Positions 50,693 through 61,284 of a stretch of DNA of 64,000 nt are shown here, piece after piece. Position numbers and translations under genes: made by a program. The notes under the pieces were generated by a model. That model saw nothing but the letters and a program-made list of their open reading frames with translations, did no database searches and was not told where the DNA came from. Positions within the stretch are counted from its first letter, which is position 1. Each line of letters opens with the position of its first letter. Location: the NCBI GenBank assembly GCA_944324845.1, contig CALUXX010000005.1, positions 1 through 64,000 of the forward strand, written 5' to 3'. Source of the stretch: Candidatus Gastranaerophilales bacterium. Lineage in GTDB: Bacteria > Cyanobacteriota > Vampirovibrionia > Gastranaerophilales > Gastranaerophilaceae.

Positions 50693-50764
50693 GCGGGTAT
50701 AGTTCAGTGGTAGAATGTCTCCTTCCCAAGGAGAAGATCGCGAGTTCGAGTCTCGTTGCCCGCT
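50693..50764 (+). tRNA. tRNA-Gly (anticodon CCC), island insertion target
   Basis: Acceptor GCGGGTA/TGCCCGC, anticodon stem TCTCC/GGAGA with loop TTCCCAA (anticodon CCC) and T loop TTCGAGT form a good cloverleaf. No CCA end is encoded. The 3' half from 50723 on is supplied by the integrated element; the displaced original 3' end lies at 60290-60332. Confidence 0.93.
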
Positions 50765-50765
50765 A
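50723..50765. repeat. Left attachment repeat (within tRNA-Gly)
   Basis: The 43-bp core starts TTCCCAAGGAGAAGATCGCG and ends GTTGCCCGCTA. It is identical base for base to 60290-60332 and includes the anticodon loop through the 3' end of the tRNA, the usual target of tyrosine integrases. Confidence 0.93.
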
Positions 50766-50856
50766 TTAGAAAAGAGCCTTAAAAGGCTCTCTATTATTGA
50801 AATCTTAAAATTTTTATTATATGTTTACCAATTATTTATTAGAAAAATTTTGGTAA

Positions 50857-50875
50857 TGTGACATAATTGTGACAT
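50857..50875. promoter_or_regulatory. Candidate integrase arm-type sites, left end
   Basis: TGTGACAT occurs at 50857-50864 and 50868-50875, exactly 11 bp apart (one helical turn), between the att site and the integrase stop. The same word, with the same period, is at the other end of the island. Confidence 0.6.
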
Positions 50876-50881
50876 AAAATT

Positions 50882-51952
50882 TTAACTTACAGCATACAAG
50901 TTATCCAAAACAGATTTAAATTTTTGAGCAGATTCATCTAAAACATGAGTATAAATATTTAGTGTGACATTAGCGGATGAATGCCCCATTTCTGTTTGTA
51001 CTCGTTTGGGGGAAACATTATTTTCAATAAGTTGACTACCAAAGGTATGCCTTAAATCATGAAATCTTAGGTGTCCTATATTACAGGCTTTAACAACTGG
51101 ATTAAAAAGACGTTTGGTCACATTATCACCAATATACATTTCACCTTTAGAATTCGGAAAAACATATTTACTTTTTGATGTTTTTAGTTTTTGTTCTAAT
51201 AAAACTTTCTTTAACATTGGACATATAGTGATATTTCTATATGAGGCTTTACTTTTGGGAGTATATAATTTCCCTTTATATTCACTATATTTTACCTTAA
51301 TTATACAATTATTTAAATCTACATTTTCCCACATCAAGGCAACTAATTCCCCTCTGCGCATGCCCGTAAATAGAGCAGTAAATAACATTGGAAAAAAGTT
51401 TGGTTTTATTCTTTTACAAGTATTTAATAATATATTTATTTCATCTTTATTTAATGCTCGTGCTTGCCTAGACTCTACTTTATCACAATGCACTTTTTTT
51501 ACTACATTATTATAAATAATACCCTTTTCTACTTGTCTTTCAATGATAGATCCTAGCAATGTTTTATACTTACATATTGAAGCAGAACTTAATTTTTTTT
51601 CTTTCTTCAGGTGTAAAATAAAATTTTCAACATCATTTTGAGATAATAAATACAATTTATATTTACCTAAATAAGGAATTATTATTCGGTTAATAATTCT
51701 TGTATATTCATCTTTTGTTTTTTCTTTTAAATCCTTCAACTCCATATATTTATGTATGAAGTACTGGCATGCATCAATTAAAGTAATATCCTTGTTTATT
51801 ACATTACTAATACCCTTATTATTATTTGCTTTCAATTTTACGAAGGCATTTTCAGCTTCTGCCTTTGTGTGAAAGCCACTTTTTCTTATTCTTTTACCTG
51901 ATATATCAGTGAAATCAATTTGCCAAGATTTGTTTCGTTTTCTTATAGCCAT
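50882..51952 (-). CDS. int: Tyrosine recombinase/integrase
   Basis: The 356-aa protein has an N-terminal arm-binding three-strand domain (1-45, RKRNKSWQIDFTDISGKRIRKSGF), a core-binding helical domain (60-150) and the catalytic domain. The catalytic set is visible: Arg199 in TGMRRGEL, Lys near 235, His298 and Arg301 in HDLRHTFG, His324 in MGHSS, and Tyr334 in IYTHV. It is pointed at the tRNA-Gly att site 117 bp away and should cut and join there. The start follows AAAGGA. Confidence 0.93.
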   Translation of the reverse strand: MAIRKRNKSWQIDFTDISGKRIRKSGFHTKAEAENAFVKLKANNNKGISNVINKDITLIDACQYFIHKYMELKDLKEKTKDEYTRIINRIIIPYLGKYKLYLLSQNDVENFILHLKKEKKLSSASICKYKTLLGSIIERQVEKGIIYNNVVKKVHCDKVESRQARALNKDEINILLNTCKRIKPNFFPMLFTALFTGMRRGELVALMWENVDLNNCIIKVKYSEYKGKLYTPKSKASYRNITICPMLKKVLLEQKLKTSKSKYVFPNSKGEMYIGDNVTKRLFNPVVKACNIGHLRFHDLRHTFGSQLIENNVSPKRVQTEMGHSSANVTLNIYTHVLDESAQKFKSVLDNLYAVS

Positions 51953-52028
51953 ACTATTTTCCTTTCGTTGATAAAAGTACTTTTTTCATATAATACCCTT
52001 TATATAATTTGAAATCAAGTACTTTTTT

Positions 52029-52289
52029 CTATAACCCTAGATAGTCCTTTATCGCAGAACCTTGAAATAATAATTTACTACCAGATTTAATACAAGGTAA
52101 TTTCTTATTATACTTCCATTTATATATGGTATTAGGTTGTACTCTAAGTATTTCTGCCGTTTCATTAACTGTATATAACTTATCAGGTTTAATAGTATAT
52201 GTAATATTTTCTTTTTCAGTTGCTTTTTCATTTTTTCTATCATATTCTATCTTTCTAGATAGTAATTTATATAAAATTTCTGTATCCAT
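52029..52289 (-). CDS. Excisionase-like helix-turn-helix protein
   Basis: The C-terminal 55 residues of this 86-aa protein (YTVNETAEILRVQPNTIYKWKYNKKLPCIKSG, then KLLFQGSAIKDYLG) are the MerR-like HTH of the excisionase/helix_turn_helix_17 group. The N-terminal 30 residues are a charged helix. It lies just upstream of the integrase on the same strand. It could direct excision or repress the integrase; both roles are known for this family. Confidence 0.78.
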   Translation of the reverse strand: MDTEILYKLLSRKIEYDRKNEKATEKENITYTIKPDKLYTVNETAEILRVQPNTIYKWKYNKKLPCIKSGSKLLFQGSAIKDYLGL

Positions 52290-52396
52290 TTTGTATTCCT
52301 TATTTTTTATCTCATTCTAAATTTGAAACCTTAAATTATATAATCAGGCATATATCCTTATATATAATGTAATACCCTATTCATAATTATTTAAAG

Positions 52397-53293
52397 TTAT
52401 TCTATTTGAAAATCTGGGGTATAATATATATAATCTTGAAACTCTTTAAATTCGTCTTTGGTAACCTGTTGTAGAGGGTTATATTGATAAACATTTTTCC
52501 AGTTTAAAAGGGCTTTTCCGTTAAACTCTTCAAATGTCATATTCATAATGTTTTCAAGATATTTTATAAAATCTTTCATATAATAGTAAGTTTTTTTGAT
52601 TTCATATATCTTTGTTTTTCTGATTTTTTTAGATTCTAATTCTTTTACTGATTTTCCAATGTTTAAACCATATAATATGTTTAAGATATTTTTATCACGA
52701 TTAGCTAAAGTATTTTTAGGATGTTTTATAATGTTTGTTTTAAATTGATTGTGTAAAATATTAGTATTTATTGTAAAGTCTTCACCTTGCATTAAATCTA
52801 ATTCTCTGTGAATATCTTTATGTATTGGTGTTAAATTTGAAATCTCATTTTGGTCTTTATGTTTATTGTTATGGTGTACTTCATATATTCCAGAAATATT
52901 TGTATATAAACACATGTTTAAACGATGCAATGAAAATAAGTTATCACCTTTTAAGCCCGCCTCATATTTCATATATAGACCTCTATTTAAAAGGAGCTTG
53001 AAAATTTCAGGGGAAATGTTGTTGATACAATGTTTTCGCGATTTTAAATATTCTGATGCAGGATCATATAATTTTAAATAAATTTTTTGTGGATTATCAT
53101 AATTTTCTATTATTAAATAATTTTCACCAAGCCTATAATTTTTATTTTCTCCAAGATTTTGGAATAATACAATATAATAATTATTTAGAAAATTTGCACC
53201 TAATATTATTATATTATTGTTTTGATTTATGTATTTTTCAGTTATTTTTTCTTGTAAGAATTTGTGATAAATTCTTTTTATTATGTTTGGCAT
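52397..53293 (-). CDS. HNH homing-type endonuclease, 298 aa
   Basis: The middle holds an HNH nuclease pattern: YEVHHNNKHKDQNEISNLTPIHKDIHRE (HH pair, Asn and final His). The C-terminal part has a helix-turn-helix-like segment (GKSVKELESKKIRKTKIYEI), as in homing endonucleases with modular DNA-binding tails. The first 110 residues are unassigned. It sits inside the island, opposite in direction to cas9. Homing, element competition or defence are all possible. It is not a Cas9 fragment. Confidence 0.65.
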   Translation of the reverse strand: MPNIIKRIYHKFLQEKITEKYINQNNNIIILGANFLNNYYIVLFQNLGENKNYRLGENYLIIENYDNPQKIYLKLYDPASEYLKSRKHCINNISPEIFKLLLNRGLYMKYEAGLKGDNLFSLHRLNMCLYTNISGIYEVHHNNKHKDQNEISNLTPIHKDIHRELDLMQGEDFTINTNILHNQFKTNIIKHPKNTLANRDKNILNILYGLNIGKSVKELESKKIRKTKIYEIKKTYYYMKDFIKYLENIMNMTFEEFNGKALLNWKNVYQYNPLQQVTKDEFKEFQDYIYYTPDFQIE

Positions 53294-54014: not shown

Positions 54015-57000
54015 ATGAAGAGAGTTTTTGCATTTGATTTAGGAAAAGCAAGTATAGGTTATTGTGTAAGAGAAGATTTAGAAATAAAAGAAGCTAATTC
54101 AATTATTATTGATAAAGATCATTCTGAAATTATTTCATTAAGAGATAGACGCAGAGTTAAAAGAACTTTAGAGGCTCATAAGGCGCGTGAAAACTATTTT
54201 ATAAATATCTGGCATGAGTGTGGACTAATTCCTTTATCTACAAGTGATGACAGATTTAAGCAGGAATTTGGTAAAGGTAATGATTCTACAATATACACAT
54301 CATGCCTGTTAAGAATTGCGCTTTTACAAAATAAAAAATTAGAAGAGTGGCAAATATTTAAAGCCATATATAATGCAATTCAAAGAAGGGGATATGATCC
54401 CAATTTAGCTTGGAAATCAGCACTGACAGATGATGACAAAGAAAATACCGAACTGGTACAAAAATATACACAAGAAAATGGATTTGAACTTATTCAAAAT
54501 GAGGAATATAAATATCCTTGTTATTATGATGCTATCAGATTAGGACTTTGGAATGAAACAGAGCCAAATAAATTCAATGCAAAAGTTCAAAATCCAATTA
54601 AAGTAAGATGTACTTCATATGTAGCTCCTCGTAAACTTGTAGAAAAAGAACTTAAACAACTTTGGTTAAATGCACAAAAACAATTACCACAACTCAACAA
54701 ATATAAAGTTGAACAATTTTTATATGGCGAATATGAAGAAGCATACGGATCATATCTAAATCCAGATTACCAAAAGTATTTGGGGACAGAACATGACTGG
54801 CAAGGTGTTTTAGGACAAAAAATACCAAGATTTGATAATAGAATAATCTCTAAATGTAAATTATTACCTAAAAGAAATGTATGTAAGGCAAATACTATAG
54901 AGAATGTAAGTATAGTCTTATTATTAAAACTTAAAAACTTACGTTTGAATTGTACAGATGGCAATAAAATCTTATTAAGTTCCGAAGATATAGCACAGAT
55001 TTATGAAAATTGGTTAAAAAAAGTTGAACAAAATGTACAAAAGTACGAAGAAAAAATGTTGAAAGAAGGTAAAGAACCTGATAAAAAAGAAACCAAACTT
55101 GACACTACTATTACAAAAAAAGAAATAGAAAATGTTATACAAAGAACTATTACTGATAAATTAGAGCCGATGAAAGCGAATATTTCTGGACGTTCTTCAT
55201 TCTGTAAACGGGCATGTTTAATTATGAAAAAATTTATTTTATCAGGTGAACTATATCCGAAAAACTTAGATATAAGTGAATTTGTAGATGCACCAACCTG
55301 TAAAAACGGTATAACAGAAGAAGAAATTCGCACAATGTTATCAAAGATTGGCGATTGGAATAAATTATATATTCCTGACAACCGAGATGAGAATGTACAA
55401 ATGTTTGATGATACTCGTCAAAAAACAGATTTAATGATTGGTAATATTACAAATCCTATTGTTAGAAATAGATTACAAATTTTTAGGGATTTACTTTTAT
55501 CATTAGAAAAAGATTATGGAAAACCTGATGAAGTTATTTTTGAGTTTGTTCGAGATGGTGCAGACAATTCACTATTTGGCAGAGTGAAGGCTCAATCAGT
55601 TGAACAAAACATGAAAAAGCAAGAAAAAGAAAATGCTTTAATTGTTGAAGAATTAAAAAAAGCCAATGCATACAATGCAACAAATTTTGAAAAATTAAAA
55701 TTACTAAAAATGCAAGGTGGGCAATGTATATATTCAGGAAGCAATATTGCGATTAATGATTTTGATAAATGTGAAATAGACCATATATACCCAAGAACAA
55801 TGGGGGGAAATGACGCATTATATAATAGAGTTTTGTGTTACAGAATAGAAAACCAAAACAAACAAGGTAGAACACCTTATGAATGGTTACATTCAGATTC
55901 TGAAAGATGGGCAAACTATGTTAATAGATTAACTAATATTAAAGCAAGTTTAGGTAAAAAGAAATTTGAACTTTTAACAAGCAAACCCGAAGATTGTGCA
56001 AAACTTATTGAAAGTTACAATGGATTAGCCGAAACTAGTCATATAGCGAGAGTAGCGCAACAAATTACCGCACTTGCATTTGATTGGGGTTTACAAGTCG
56101 AAGGTGAAAAAAGACATATTTTTGTAAATAATGGCTCATCAACAAATGCAATAAGACGTAGATATGGATTAAATTCATTACTAGGAAATGATCAAAAGAA
56201 AAACCGTTCAAATGATAAGCACCACGCACTAGATGCAATTTGTATAAGTTTTTCTAGAGATTTCAAATATGATAAAGAGTCTAAAAAAGATGTAATTCAA
56301 GGATTTACAAGGGACGCAGTAAAAAAAGTCATAGATGAAATTATTCCATATCCATATACAAACAAAAAACCATTTAAAGGTAACTTGCGACCTTTAGAAA
56401 CAATATATGGATTAAGAACTTATGGAAACAAATCATATATAACTCAAAGAATATCAATAGAAACAATAGAACAAAAGGATAAAAAAATAAAAACTATTAT
56501 TGATGAAGTTATAAAAAATGATTTATTAGAAAAACTTTCTCAAAAAATGGATGCAAAAGAATGGTTAGCAATGCTACAAAACTATACTCATCCAACAAAG
56601 AAAACCAGAGTTAAAAAAGTTATGGTAGTAGTATCAGAAGGTGCAATAGAAAAAGACTCTAACGATAGAGAAAGAATTGGAGAATTCTGTGATTTTGGAA
56701 CCAAAGGGACAAAACACCAATTCAAACATTCTAAAGGGCATAAAGGTCAAATTTTATACTTTAATGAAAAAGGTACTGTAAAAGTTATGCCTATTTATGC
56801 AAATATGAAAACTTCTGAAGTAAAAGAAAAATTACTAACTATGGGTTGTAAGTTGTATAAAAAAGGTACTGTTTTCTATTCAGGTTGTTTGATTAAAGTA
56901 GATAAACCATTTGATGCAACTGTATATTATAAAGAAACAGATGAAAACGGCAAAGAAAAAACTATTTCGGTTAAACAAACCGTTCCTGAAGGCATTTTCA

Positions 57001-57119
57001 AGTTGAGGACAATTATATGTACTGGATCAACAAAACTAGAAAACAACGTAGGTTTAGAAATTGTAACATCTGCTAGTACTTTAATCAATGCTGGTTTAGG
57101 TATTTATAAAAAATATTGA
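54015..57119 (+). CDS. cas9: Compact type II-C Cas9 nuclease
   Basis: The 1034-aa protein is the RNA-guided effector that cuts both strands of target DNA. Visible parts are RuvC-I FAFDLGKASIGYC (Asp8), the Arg-rich bridge helix (about 42-59), RuvC-II VIFEFVRDG (Glu510), an HNH domain with CEIDHIYPRTMGG (His590) and NQNKQGRTPYEW, and RuvC-III HHALDAI (Asp740). A C-terminal PAM-interacting part follows. All catalytic residues are present. The ATG follows AAAGGGG. Size and the absence of csn2 and cas4 place it in II-C; the region around GYDPNLAWKSAL recalls Akkermansia-type Cas9 (from memory). cas1 follows after 30 bp. Confidence 0.97.
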   Translation: MKRVFAFDLGKASIGYCVREDLEIKEANSIIIDKDHSEIISLRDRRRVKRTLEAHKARENYFINIWHECGLIPLSTSDDRFKQEFGKGNDSTIYTSCLLRIALLQNKKLEEWQIFKAIYNAIQRRGYDPNLAWKSALTDDDKENTELVQKYTQENGFELIQNEEYKYPCYYDAIRLGLWNETEPNKFNAKVQNPIKVRCTSYVAPRKLVEKELKQLWLNAQKQLPQLNKYKVEQFLYGEYEEAYGSYLNPDYQKYLGTEHDWQGVLGQKIPRFDNRIISKCKLLPKRNVCKANTIENVSIVLLLKLKNLRLNCTDGNKILLSSEDIAQIYENWLKKVEQNVQKYEEKMLKEGKEPDKKETKLDTTITKKEIENVIQRTITDKLEPMKANISGRSSFCKRACLIMKKFILSGELYPKNLDISEFVDAPTCKNGITEEEIRTMLSKIGDWNKLYIPDNRDENVQMFDDTRQKTDLMIGNITNPIVRNRLQIFRDLLLSLEKDYGKPDEVIFEFVRDGADNSLFGRVKAQSVEQNMKKQEKENALIVEELKKANAYNATNFEKLKLLKMQGGQCIYSGSNIAINDFDKCEIDHIYPRTMGGNDALYNRVLCYRIENQNKQGRTPYEWLHSDSERWANYVNRLTNIKASLGKKKFELLTSKPEDCAKLIESYNGLAETSHIARVAQQITALAFDWGLQVEGEKRHIFVNNGSSTNAIRRRYGLNSLLGNDQKKNRSNDKHHALDAICISFSRDFKYDKESKKDVIQGFTRDAVKKVIDEIIPYPYTNKKPFKGNLRPLETIYGLRTYGNKSYITQRISIETIEQKDKKIKTIIDEVIKNDLLEKLSQKMDAKEWLAMLQNYTHPTKKTRVKKVMVVVSEGAIEKDSNDRERIGEFCDFGTKGTKHQFKHSKGHKGQILYFNEKGTVKVMPIYANMKTSEVKEKLLTMGCKLYKKGTVFYSGCLIKVDKPFDATVYYKETDENGKEKTISVKQTVPEGIFKLRTIICTGSTKLENNVGLEIVTSASTLINAGLGIYKKY

Positions 57120-57149: not shown

Positions 57150-58097
57150 ATGAGTTATCATATTCTACATCTTACAACACCTAATTGTTATCTTTCGGTA
57201 GAAAGAGGTCTGTTGTTTTGCAAATTTGATAATGATGAAACAAAAATGATTTCCCTACAAGATATAAAAGCAATTATTGTTGTTACTCATGGCATATCTT
57301 TTTCCAATCACTGTTTAGCTAAACTCTTAGAAAATAATGTTGTTATATTGCATTGTGATAATCGCTATCAGCCGACAGGATGGAGTCTGCCACTAGAAAG
57401 GATAGTTAGAACAAAAGTTTTTTATAATCAAATTGCTAGAAATGAAGTATTTGAAAATGAATTATGGAAAAAAATTTTAAAAGTTAAAGTTTTAAATCAA
57501 GCAAATACTTTAAATTTAATGGGAGATAATGAACACAATTTATTTAGGTTAATTGAAAGACCTTTGATGAGTGAAGCCAATATTGCAAGACAATATTGGG
57601 AACATTATTTTTCTGATATAGGAAATCCTCAAAAGCGAGAACATCAATGGGCAGAAACCTTTGAAAACGGTTGTTTAAACTATGGTTATGCAGTAATTAA
57701 TACTTTAATTTATCGCTCAATAATTATACATGGGCTTATTGCAAGTTTAGGTATTCATCACTTAGGAAAATACAAAAGTACGCCATTGGTCTATGATTTG
57801 ATGGAACCATATAGACCTTTTATTGACTATTACTTCTATGTTTTTTCACAAGAATATGAGAAAGATTATGATACAAAAAATTTTAAAAGTTGGAGTAAAT
57901 ATATTGCAAATTGTATAAAAAATTATAGATTAAAAATTAATGATACCAGTTATAAATTAGTCGATACTATAGATATTTATATAGAAAAAATTACTGATGC
58001 CTATATAAAATATGATTGTTCAAATATATTTGTTCCAAGGATTGAAGAACAATATTTATATATTGATAAACAAAGGAACCGAGAATATGAGGAGTAA
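57150..58097 (+). CDS. cas1: CRISPR integrase Cas1 (type II)
   Basis: The 315-aa protein has type II Cas1 features: HCDNRYQPTGWSLPL early, NGCLNYGYAVINTLIYRSIIIHGL (metal-binding region), LGIHHLGK and the late DLMEPYRPFIDYY. With Cas2 it inserts new spacers at the array. It starts 30 bp after cas9 with a weak ribosome site, so it probably depends on upstream translation, and it overlaps cas2. Confidence 0.96.
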   Translation: MSYHILHLTTPNCYLSVERGLLFCKFDNDETKMISLQDIKAIIVVTHGISFSNHCLAKLLENNVVILHCDNRYQPTGWSLPLERIVRTKVFYNQIARNEVFENELWKKILKVKVLNQANTLNLMGDNEHNLFRLIERPLMSEANIARQYWEHYFSDIGNPQKREHQWAETFENGCLNYGYAVINTLIYRSIIIHGLIASLGIHHLGKYKSTPLVYDLMEPYRPFIDYYFYVFSQEYEKDYDTKNFKSWSKYIANCIKNYRLKINDTSYKLVDTIDIYIEKITDAYIKYDCSNIFVPRIEEQYLYIDKQRNREYEE

Positions 58098-58434
58098 ATA
58101 TCGCATGGGTTGGTTAATAGTATGTTTTGATTTGCCTGTTGGTGATAAGGAAGAAATGCGCCAAGCAAATTCTTTCAGAAAATCCCTACTAAATCAAGGT
58201 TATTTTATGTTACAGAATTCTATCTATGTTCGCTCTTGTGTTACTTATGATAAAACAGAACAGCATATTAGAAACTTGAAAATGATTGCGCCACTAACAG
58301 GAACAATATCTGCATTTTATATAACAGATAGACAATGGAGTCTAGCAGTAAATATTCAACAAATAGATTACAAAAAATCAAAATACCAAAAACAAGCTGG
58401 CGAAAACATAGAAAAGCAGATGACATTTTGGTAA
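58087..58434 (+). CDS. cas2: CRISPR adaptation protein Cas2
   Basis: The 115-aa ferredoxin-like protein starts MRSKYRMGWLIVCFDLPVG, with the first-strand Asp of Cas2, and has SFRKSLLNQGYFMLQNSIYVRSC. The start at 58087 overlaps the cas1 stop; an upstream extension to 58012 lies inside cas1 and lacks family similarity. It bridges two Cas1 dimers in the adaptation complex. It is the last gene of the cas9-cas1-cas2 operon; no csn2 or cas4 follows. Confidence 0.95.
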   Translation: MRSKYRMGWLIVCFDLPVGDKEEMRQANSFRKSLLNQGYFMLQNSIYVRSCVTYDKTEQHIRNLKMIAPLTGTISAFYITDRQWSLAVNIQQIDYKKSKYQKQAGENIEKQMTFW

Positions 58435-58440
58435 TTTTAT

Positions 58441-58568
58441 TATACAATGTTATTATATTAGTATTAAATTCTTAGGATTTAGAGAATGAATTATTTCGTA
58501 CAGTATTGCAGAGGATCTAACTATTCTCTTTTCAATTATGATTGGACTATTAGTTTAAAGTATATTAC
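58441..58568 (-). ncRNA. tracrRNA candidate
   Basis: On the minus strand, 58568 down to about 58535 is an anti-repeat. It pairs with crRNA repeat bases 11-34 with one mismatch and two G-U pairs, then across a small bulge with bases 1-9 (one mismatch). Downstream, AGAGAAT (58523-58529) and ATTCTCT (58481-58487) can form a 7-bp stem. It lies between cas2 and the array and shares the array's direction. The 3' end is uncertain; no T-run terminator is seen. Confidence 0.85.
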
Positions 58569-58574
58569 ATATTC

Positions 58575-58603
58575 ATTATATCATAATTTATTTAATTTGT
58601 ATA
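58575..58603 (-). promoter_or_regulatory. tracrRNA promoter
   Basis: On the minus strand, TATACA (58598-58603), a 17-bp spacer and extended -10 TGATATAAT (58575-58583) predict a start near 58568, exactly where the anti-repeat begins. The promoter inside repeat 1 (58608-58636) also reads into this RNA. Confidence 0.7.
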
Positions 58604-58607
58604 TCCT

Positions 58608-58636
58608 ATTATAACATATTTTAAACTAATAGTAAA
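58608..58636 (-). promoter_or_regulatory. Promoter inside CRISPR repeat 1 (present in every repeat)
   Basis: Minus-strand TTTACT (58631-58636), 17 bp, then TATAAT (58608-58613) with TG one base before it. In the other repeats the same promoter would start transcription within the neighbouring spacer; in repeat 1 it reads through the leader into tracrRNA. The degenerate repeat 19 keeps TGTTATAAT although its crRNA-handle part has changed. Confidence 0.7.
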
Positions 58637-59825
58637 TCAAAACAGTTAGGGCCGCTAACCAAATCGGGAACATATTATAACATATTTTAAACTAATAGTA
58701 AATCAAAACATAGCGACCATTATTATAAAGAATAATATCATTATAACATATTTTAAACTAATAGTAAATCAAAACTAACAGCATTACCTGCAACAATTTG
58801 TAAATTATAACATATTTTAAACTAATAGTAAATCAAAACCATAACAACTACAAAAGAATTTTTGGGAGCATTATAACATATTTTAAACTAATAGTAAATC
58901 AAAACAAGAAAACAAATAATTGCGAGCATGCCTTGATTATAACATATTTTAAACTAATAGTAAATCAAAACGTTGAATTGAACAGACAAGTAAGGGACGC
59001 TATTATAACATATTTTAAACTAATAGTAAATCAAAACCAGCAAATGAAATATTGGAACAGTCATATAATTATAACATATTTTAAACTAATAGTAAATCAA
59101 AACGAAACAGTGAGAGGGTTGCCGTTTTCATCAATTATAACATATTTTAAACTAATAGTAAATCAAAACTTGCGGTTTATAATAATCATATTTTGCACAT
59201 TATAACATATTTTAAACTAATAGTAAATCAAAACATATAGCCACCTCTCTTGTAACTACTTCAAATTATAACATATTTTAAACTAATAGTAAATCAAAAC
59301 GAAAAATCGACCGTTAAAATATAACCGGTAATTATAACATATTTTAAACTAATAGTAAATCAAAACTATTCGTGGCATTGTTCTGGTTGACATTACATTA
59401 TAACATATTTTAAACTAATAGTAAATCAAAACCACCAATAAATTTTATATTCACAATTATATATTATAACATATTTTAAACTAATAGTAAATCAAAACTT
59501 GAGTGGCTTTGAAGAATTTATAAATGGATTATAACATATTTTAAACTAATAGTAAATCAAAACCCTGGCGTGATGATGTTTCAAGGAAATCAATTATAAC
59601 ATATTTTAAACTAATAGTAAATCAAAACTATATTTTTTCAGGTAAAGACGAAAGTTCATTATAACATATTTTAAACTAATAGTAAATCAAAACTTCTTTT
59701 GTTACACCTTTTGCAAGTAACAATTATAACATATTTTAAACTAATAGTAAATCAAAACGAATGTTGAGAGCATATCAACCATTCCAACATTATAACATGT
59801 TTTAAAATTAATAGTAGATCAAAAC
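58608..59825 (-). CRISPR. Type II-C CRISPR array, 19 repeats and 18 spacers
   Basis: The 36-bp repeats begin ATTATAACAT and end AATCAAAAC on the plus strand; 18 are identical. Spacers are 28-30 bp, mostly 30. The last repeat (59789-59825) is 37 bp and degenerate, marking the old end, so new spacers enter beside the cas genes. In crRNA sense (minus strand) each repeat starts GTTTTGATTT and ends TGTTATAAT, an extended -10, with TTTACT 17 bp upstream. Transcription from each repeat is therefore expected, leftward. Confidence 0.97.
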
Positions 59826-60332: not shown

Positions 60333-60372
60333 ACTTTTGTAAGATTATTTGGGGAATAGGTGTGAGGTTTTT

Positions 60373-61284
60373 ATGTCGTATTATGATGAATTATTAAAAA
60401 AAATTCCCAAAATTAAAAGATTTTTGGATTCCGGGGATAATTGCACTATTTATCATTATACGAAGCCTGAAAAACTTTTGAATATTTTATCTGGTGGTAC
60501 AATTCGTTTTTCTAATGCCTTGTATCTTAATGACAAGGAAGAAATAGCTTATTCTTACAAACTTATTATTGAATTGATTGACCAAACTGAAAATCTTAAT
60601 CAGGATCTTTTCGAAAAAATAAAAAATCATTTTAATAATAAATATAAACATATTGTTGATGGAAATACTGATTTTGTTAATAAATTAGAGTATTTTACAA
60701 CTTCTTTTTCCACTGAAAGTGATAATTTAACGCTTTGGAATAATTATGCTAAAGGGAAAAATTATACCGGTTATAACATTGGGTTTGATAAACAAAAACT
60801 TGTGGGTGAGATGGATCAAAATAATTATCTTCCGATTTTTGGAAGTGTTATTTATGATAAGCAAAAACAGATTAAAATTATTCGTGCTATTTTTAAAAAA
60901 TGGAACAGCCTTTTTGAAAGAGCATTAAAATCTAAAAAATCTAATGAGGTTAAATTGTTTGATATCTTGTTTGAGCTTGTTGATATATTAAGTATTGTGA
61001 GTATATTTTTCAAAAATCCTCAGTTCAAAAATGAGCATGAATATCGTATTGTTATGGTGAATGTTTTTGGGGCTGAAAATTCTAAACCTACAGGTGTTGT
61101 TGAAAAAAATGGTTTATTTGTTCCGTATCTTGAATATCATTTTTCTAAGGATTCGGTTGTTTCTGTTAATATCGGACCAACTTTTGATGAAAATATCTTC
61201 TATACAAGTACAAATAGAATGCTTTTGAATTATGGTTATCAAGGTAAAGAGGTTAAGCGTTCTAAAATTCCTTTGAGATATTAG
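60373..61284 (+). CDS. DUF2971 family protein
   Basis: From ATG 60373 (MSYYDELLKKIPK), five bases after GAGG, the protein is 303 aa. It has the DUF2971 pattern: IYHYTKPEKLLNILSGGTIRFSNALYLNDKEEIAY, then FTTSFSTESDNLTLWNNYAKGKNYTGYNIGFD. The family is widespread, of unknown function, and sometimes seen near defence genes. It sits right beside the island but outside the att repeat. It overlaps the next, convergent gene by 4 bp. Confidence 0.75.
   Translation: MSYYDELLKKIPKIKRFLDSGDNCTIYHYTKPEKLLNILSGGTIRFSNALYLNDKEEIAYSYKLIIELIDQTENLNQDLFEKIKNHFNNKYKHIVDGNTDFVNKLEYFTTSFSTESDNLTLWNNYAKGKNYTGYNIGFDKQKLVGEMDQNNYLPIFGSVIYDKQKQIKIIRAIFKKWNSLFERALKSKKSNEVKLFDILFELVDILSIVSIFFKNPQFKNEHEYRIVMVNVFGAENSKPTGVVEKNGLFVPYLEYHFSKDSVVSVNIGPTFDENIFYTSTNRMLLNYGYQGKEVKRSKIPLRY

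Follow-up and report, generated by a model that had tools for sequence, protein, structure and literature searches.

The window, meaning the whole 64,000-nucleotide stretch of DNA that was analysed, contains a type II-C CRISPR-Cas locus whose tracrRNA is placed between the cas2 gene and the array; every perfect repeat of that array ends in a full match to an extended -10 element. Individual promoters for the crRNAs, one predicted at the end of each repeat, are well supported by the sequence of this array and of its relatives. The reading as a whole, a II-C locus with an extended -10 promoter in each repeat, tracrRNA pairing, trimming of crRNA 3' ends, integration that copies the promoter and an oldest repeat acting solely as a promoter, is considered very probable. 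The features of the locus are as follows.

54015 to 57119, plus strand: cas9 (1034 aa; Pfam HNH_4, 2e-15; PADLOC Cas9, 1.6e-50; NCBIfam TIGR01865)
57150 to 58097, plus strand: cas1 (Pfam Cas_Cas1, 9e-26; PADLOC Cas1_II, 4e-62)
58012 to 58434, plus strand: cas2 (Pfam CRISPR_Cas2, 7e-14; PADLOC Cas2_II, 6e-32)
58482 to 58568, minus strand: predicted tracrRNA, with a start at about 58568, an antirepeat at about 58568-58534 and a GAGAAT/ATTCTC hairpin at 58528-58482
58575 to 58603, minus strand: predicted tracrRNA promoter, TATACA, 17 bp and TATAAT after TG (TGATATAAT at 58583-58575)
58597 to 58607, minus strand: leader anchor AGGATATACAA, adjoining the newest repeat and overlapping the -35 (TATACA) of the tracrRNA promoter
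58608 to 59825, read on the minus strand: CRISPR array, composed of 18 perfect repeats (36 bp) and a degenerate one (37 nt)
58608 to 58616, minus strand: extended -10 of the newest repeat, at the same place as in all 18 but with the tracrRNA gene instead of a spacer in front of it
58608 to 59758, minus strand: the 18 perfect repeats with their spacers, every copy ending in TGTTATAAT
59789 to 59825, minus strand: degenerate oldest repeat, first to be transcribed, with three substitutions and one inserted base, the -10 and TG intact

The cas9 match to TIGR01865 was above the cut-off with both pieces joined, and the lower coordinate of the tracrRNA is the end of the hairpin, standing in for the 3' end. 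Among the flanking ORFs examined, cas9, cas1 and cas2 were the only cas genes, with neither csn2 nor cas4, and a gene for RNase III is present in the genome. Upstream of cas9 lie a tRNA gene (50693-50764), a tyrosine integrase gene on the minus strand (50882-51952) with a small excisionase-like DNA-binding protein near it, and an ORF (52397-53293) encoding an HNH-like motif with no Pfam match; the region 50693-53293 is possibly an integrated element beside the CRISPR locus. PADLOC weakly matched (1.3e-07) a DUF2971 protein, encoded beside the array at 60349-61284, to the candidate defence family PDC-S31.

Read on the minus strand, the repeat sequence is GTTTTGATTTACTATTAGTTTAAAATATGTTATAAT, and its terminus forms the extended -10 TGtTATAAT. 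TTTACT occupies positions 8-13 and is separated by 17 bp from TATAAT, which takes up the final six positions (31-36); TG stands at 28-29, and the spacers are 28-30 nt in length. An earlier note on this DNA had described each repeat as TTTACT, 17 bp and an extended -10, and a consensus scan confirmed this arrangement in 18/18 perfect repeats, each scoring 10/12 matches together with the TG. Across the genome, with up to three mismatches allowed, copies of the repeat were confined to the array at 58608-59758. The same note held that the degenerate repeat had kept its -10 while changing elsewhere; TGTTATAAT is indeed retained exactly, but the changes take in the rest of the promoter, with TCTACT at the -35 and a spacing of 18 arising from the inserted base. 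The predicted duplex with the tracrRNA is -23.9 kcal/mol for the perfect repeat and -12.7 kcal/mol for the degenerate one.

The cas operon lies on the plus strand, and the antirepeat and predicted crRNA orientation lie on the minus strand, indicating that the array probably runs opposite to the cas genes; the antirepeat, found on the same strand as the crRNAs about 40 nt past the last repeat, fixes this direction independently. The arrangement of the array, with the degenerate repeat at the far end and perfect repeats and a conserved leader anchor at 58608, appears to follow the polarity of type II-C loci, and relatives are alike in this. In a 21-sequence alignment the tracrRNA, its GAGAAT/ATTCTC hairpin included, is conserved among relatives and GGATATACAA of the leader anchor is invariant; this stretch of the leader may have a part in integration as well as in transcription of the tracrRNA. 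In a second Cas9 subclade of the class (L066, L068-L072) approximately 4.4 kb separate the array from the tracrRNA, whose promoter is TTGACA/TATAAT and whose antirepeat reaches into the -10 of the repeat.

In the proposed mechanism RNA polymerase would start approximately 5-8 nt into every spacer on the minus strand, with crRNA guides of about 22-25 nt. The tracrRNA would be transcribed from a separate extended -10 promoter next to the array and would pair with the next repeat, RNase III would probably trim the crRNA 3' end and Cas9 would use the resulting pair. New spacers would enter at the cas2/tracrRNA end, probably at 58608, and the promoter would be copied along with the repeat at each integration; the oldest repeat would then act as promoter of the oldest spacer only, so that its handle half would be free to decay. 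Promoters of this kind would fix crRNA 5' ends only. The suggestion in the earlier note that the crRNAs are independent of processing is thus unsupported, since an RNase III gene and a strong tracrRNA-repeat duplex are both present and crRNA 3' ends are therefore probably processed. By itself the RNase III gene is compatible with crRNAs that need the enzyme and with crRNAs that do not. Read-through from upstream repeat promoters is expected, with longer precursors coexisting with the short transcripts, and in the subclade to which the window belongs the promoter of the newest repeat faces the tracrRNA gene and could add tracrRNA transcripts. No significant purine bias was detected at the expected start position among 685 unique spacers. 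Searches of viral contigs with the last 21-22 nt (3' end) of three spacers produced no match, so that targets provide neither a PAM nor an orientation.

Because 18 identical copies amount to a single observation, the arrays of relatives were collected. A Cas9 scan of genome contigs gave one distant relative only and was replaced by whole-genome searches; the Cas9 searches covered 98 relatives, followed by 382 genomes from the same bacterial class, yielding 43 Cas9-linked arrays with 27 distinct repeats in 10 clusters (first 30 nt at 70% identity). The script used to orient arrays partly required that repeats end in AT, but the unfiltered list indicated that no array had been lost thereby, and the antirepeat supports the chosen orientation in most loci. 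When the AT-rich window repeat was shuffled, an exact TATAAT fell at the 3' end in 0.5% of shuffles and TGnTATAAT at the end in 0.04%. Among the relatives the last six bases were within one mismatch of TATAAT in 9/10 clusters against a shuffling expectation of 0.18, bearing out the conservation of the -10 that the earlier note had anticipated. Distinct repeats ended in TATAAT in 23/27 cases and in TAYAAT in 26/27 across the 43 arrays, and the -10 terminus was kept even where the first 30 nt of the repeat were 43-57% GC; of these GC-rich-bodied repeats L074 and L075 end in TATAAT or TACAAT, the sole exception being L073, which ends in TACGAT. In weighted columns T-12, A-11, A-8 and T-7 were near-invariant and each base of the TG was present at 88%, whilst the base between TG and hexamer was free and the third -10 position was T or C, a profile that fits a sigma-70 extended -10 element as judged from these alignments.

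The -35 region did not behave in this way. TTTACT was present in only 8/27 distinct repeats, and a best -35 match of at least 4/6 at 16-18 bp spacing was found in 12/27 against approximately 4 expected, many of the 27 being close relatives. The -35 lacks conservation between clusters, and a generally conserved element at this place is unsupported. Over 458 kb of the genome that carries the window (31% GC, with TATAAT common) TGNTATAAT occurred upstream of genes 12 times in the sense and 5 times in the antisense orientation, a modest excess.

The same termini might be kept mainly for integration, with Cas1-Cas2 recognizing the leader-repeat junction at which the TATAAT end meets AGGATATACAA. 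The leader does adjoin the repeat 3' end, part of it is invariant as described above, and the newest repeat was unmutated in every array examined. We nevertheless consider this explanation unlikely, as the base separating TG from TATAAT is variable and the third -10 position takes T or C, both in keeping with sigma-70, and as the oldest repeat, at which integration is not to be expected, generally retains its -10. This was apparent from 31 arrays with enough flank, in which the stretch ending 29-31 nt before the first intact repeat was inspected; this first-repeat element kept the array's own -10 with at most one mismatch in 24/31 arrays, against a background of 0.019 per position. Integration and promoter functions may be exercised together at the repeat 3' end. 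Pairing with the tracrRNA does not explain the -10 hexamer, since in the window the antirepeat of the tracrRNA extends only to about repeat position 31.

The first repeats of the relatives are informative in their own right. Mismatches numbered 300 in their 5' halves and 141 in their 3' halves, and in several arrays (L030, L032, L072, L073, L090 and L098) the 5' half was unrecognizable, the first repeat being cut down to approximately 7-16 nt around the -10 in exact spacer-length register. Some remnants appear cut, whilst L079, L091, L095 and the window show scattered changes, and decay of the outer half could be partly geometric, reflecting truncation from outside. Promoter function is the simplest reason for the retained -10, because integration is unexpected at this position and a remnant lacking the handle cannot pair with the tracrRNA. 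Feussner 2025 (PMC12080349) reported that 60% of II-C first repeats are mutated, mostly in the first 15 nt, with weaker tracrRNA pairing, and its authors suggest that the extra repeat must retain promoter function. The weaker predicted pairing of the degenerate repeat in the window agrees with this general finding, whereas in some of the relatives examined here decay goes further, down to promoter-only remnants at exact spacer register. A joint proposal, that many II-C oldest repeats are selected only as promoters (the handle erased, 9-20 nt around the -10 left in register, the oldest spacer expressed and no extraneous crRNA made) and that in the window subclade the newest repeat may give the tracrRNA a second start, appears to us evenly poised between holding and failing. 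No terminator-like site was found upstream of the window array. In L079 and L095, approximately 300 nt upstream of the main array, the opposite strand carries what may be separate repeat-like copies, and similar candidate copies were seen farther from the array in L025 and L075.

Alternatively, transcription could begin at the first repeat or outside the array and yield a single long precursor, which tracrRNA and RNase III would process, with the internal -10s weak or silent. RNase III and a strong antirepeat duplex are available for such processing and polymerases that initiate at the first repeat would go on to transcribe the rest of the array, but an identical -10 in all repeats argues against this scheme, as do the want of a good outside promoter (the best upstream minus-strand site, TTGGCA-17-AATAGT, matches at 9/12) and the position of the newest spacers, which would come last on the transcript and hence be served worst; we regard it as improbable. 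That an AT-rich repeat acquired its -10 match by chance is scarcely credible, for whilst the genome is 31% GC and TATAAT arises somewhere within 16% of the shuffled repeats, the terminal match recurs in nine of ten divergent clusters where 0.18 would be expected, GC-rich bodies included.

Promoters within each repeat, the reading preferred here, have been described in other type II-C systems. In Campylobacter jejuni (Dugar 2013, PMC3656092) starts were mapped to spacer position 5, the repeat ends in GGTAAAAT, and RNase III makes the crRNA 3' end, one RNase III event per crRNA being sufficient. The window locus shares with C. jejuni the cas9-cas1-cas2 set and a -10 at the 3' end of every repeat, and differs in that its -10 is the full TGtTATAAT consensus and is known from sequence alone. 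For Neisseria meningitidis (Zhang 2013, as cited in PMC7038990 and PMC5006608) the citing papers describe a promoter inside each repeat, a leader promoter that is unneeded and crRNAs reported to be independent of RNase III; the likeness to the window locus lies in the repeat-internal promoters, whilst RNase III independence is, as cited there, a claim about Neisseria. Repeat promoters have been stated for type II-C generally (PMC12080349), but Riemerella II-C repeats are reportedly without them (PMC5006608) and the trait is therefore not universal in this subtype. In Clostridium cellulolyticum H10 (PMC7038990) the last nine bases of the repeat are similar to an extended -10 element and guides are 23-26 nt, the small-RNA data coming from expression in E. 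coli; the window array, here read from its DNA only, shares this repeat end and the orientation opposite to cas. Published work on C. jejuni and N. meningitidis already describes the mechanism; the window locus adds another case and leaves it unchanged. Beyond these systems, a quantitative test of conservation extends repeat-embedded crRNA promoters to a further bacterial class, and a sequence rule for orienting such arrays, TGnTATAAT at the repeat 3' end, is provided. The freshest elements are the class-wide test itself and the promoter-only remnants of oldest repeats, which separate promoter function from tracrRNA pairing and from integration.
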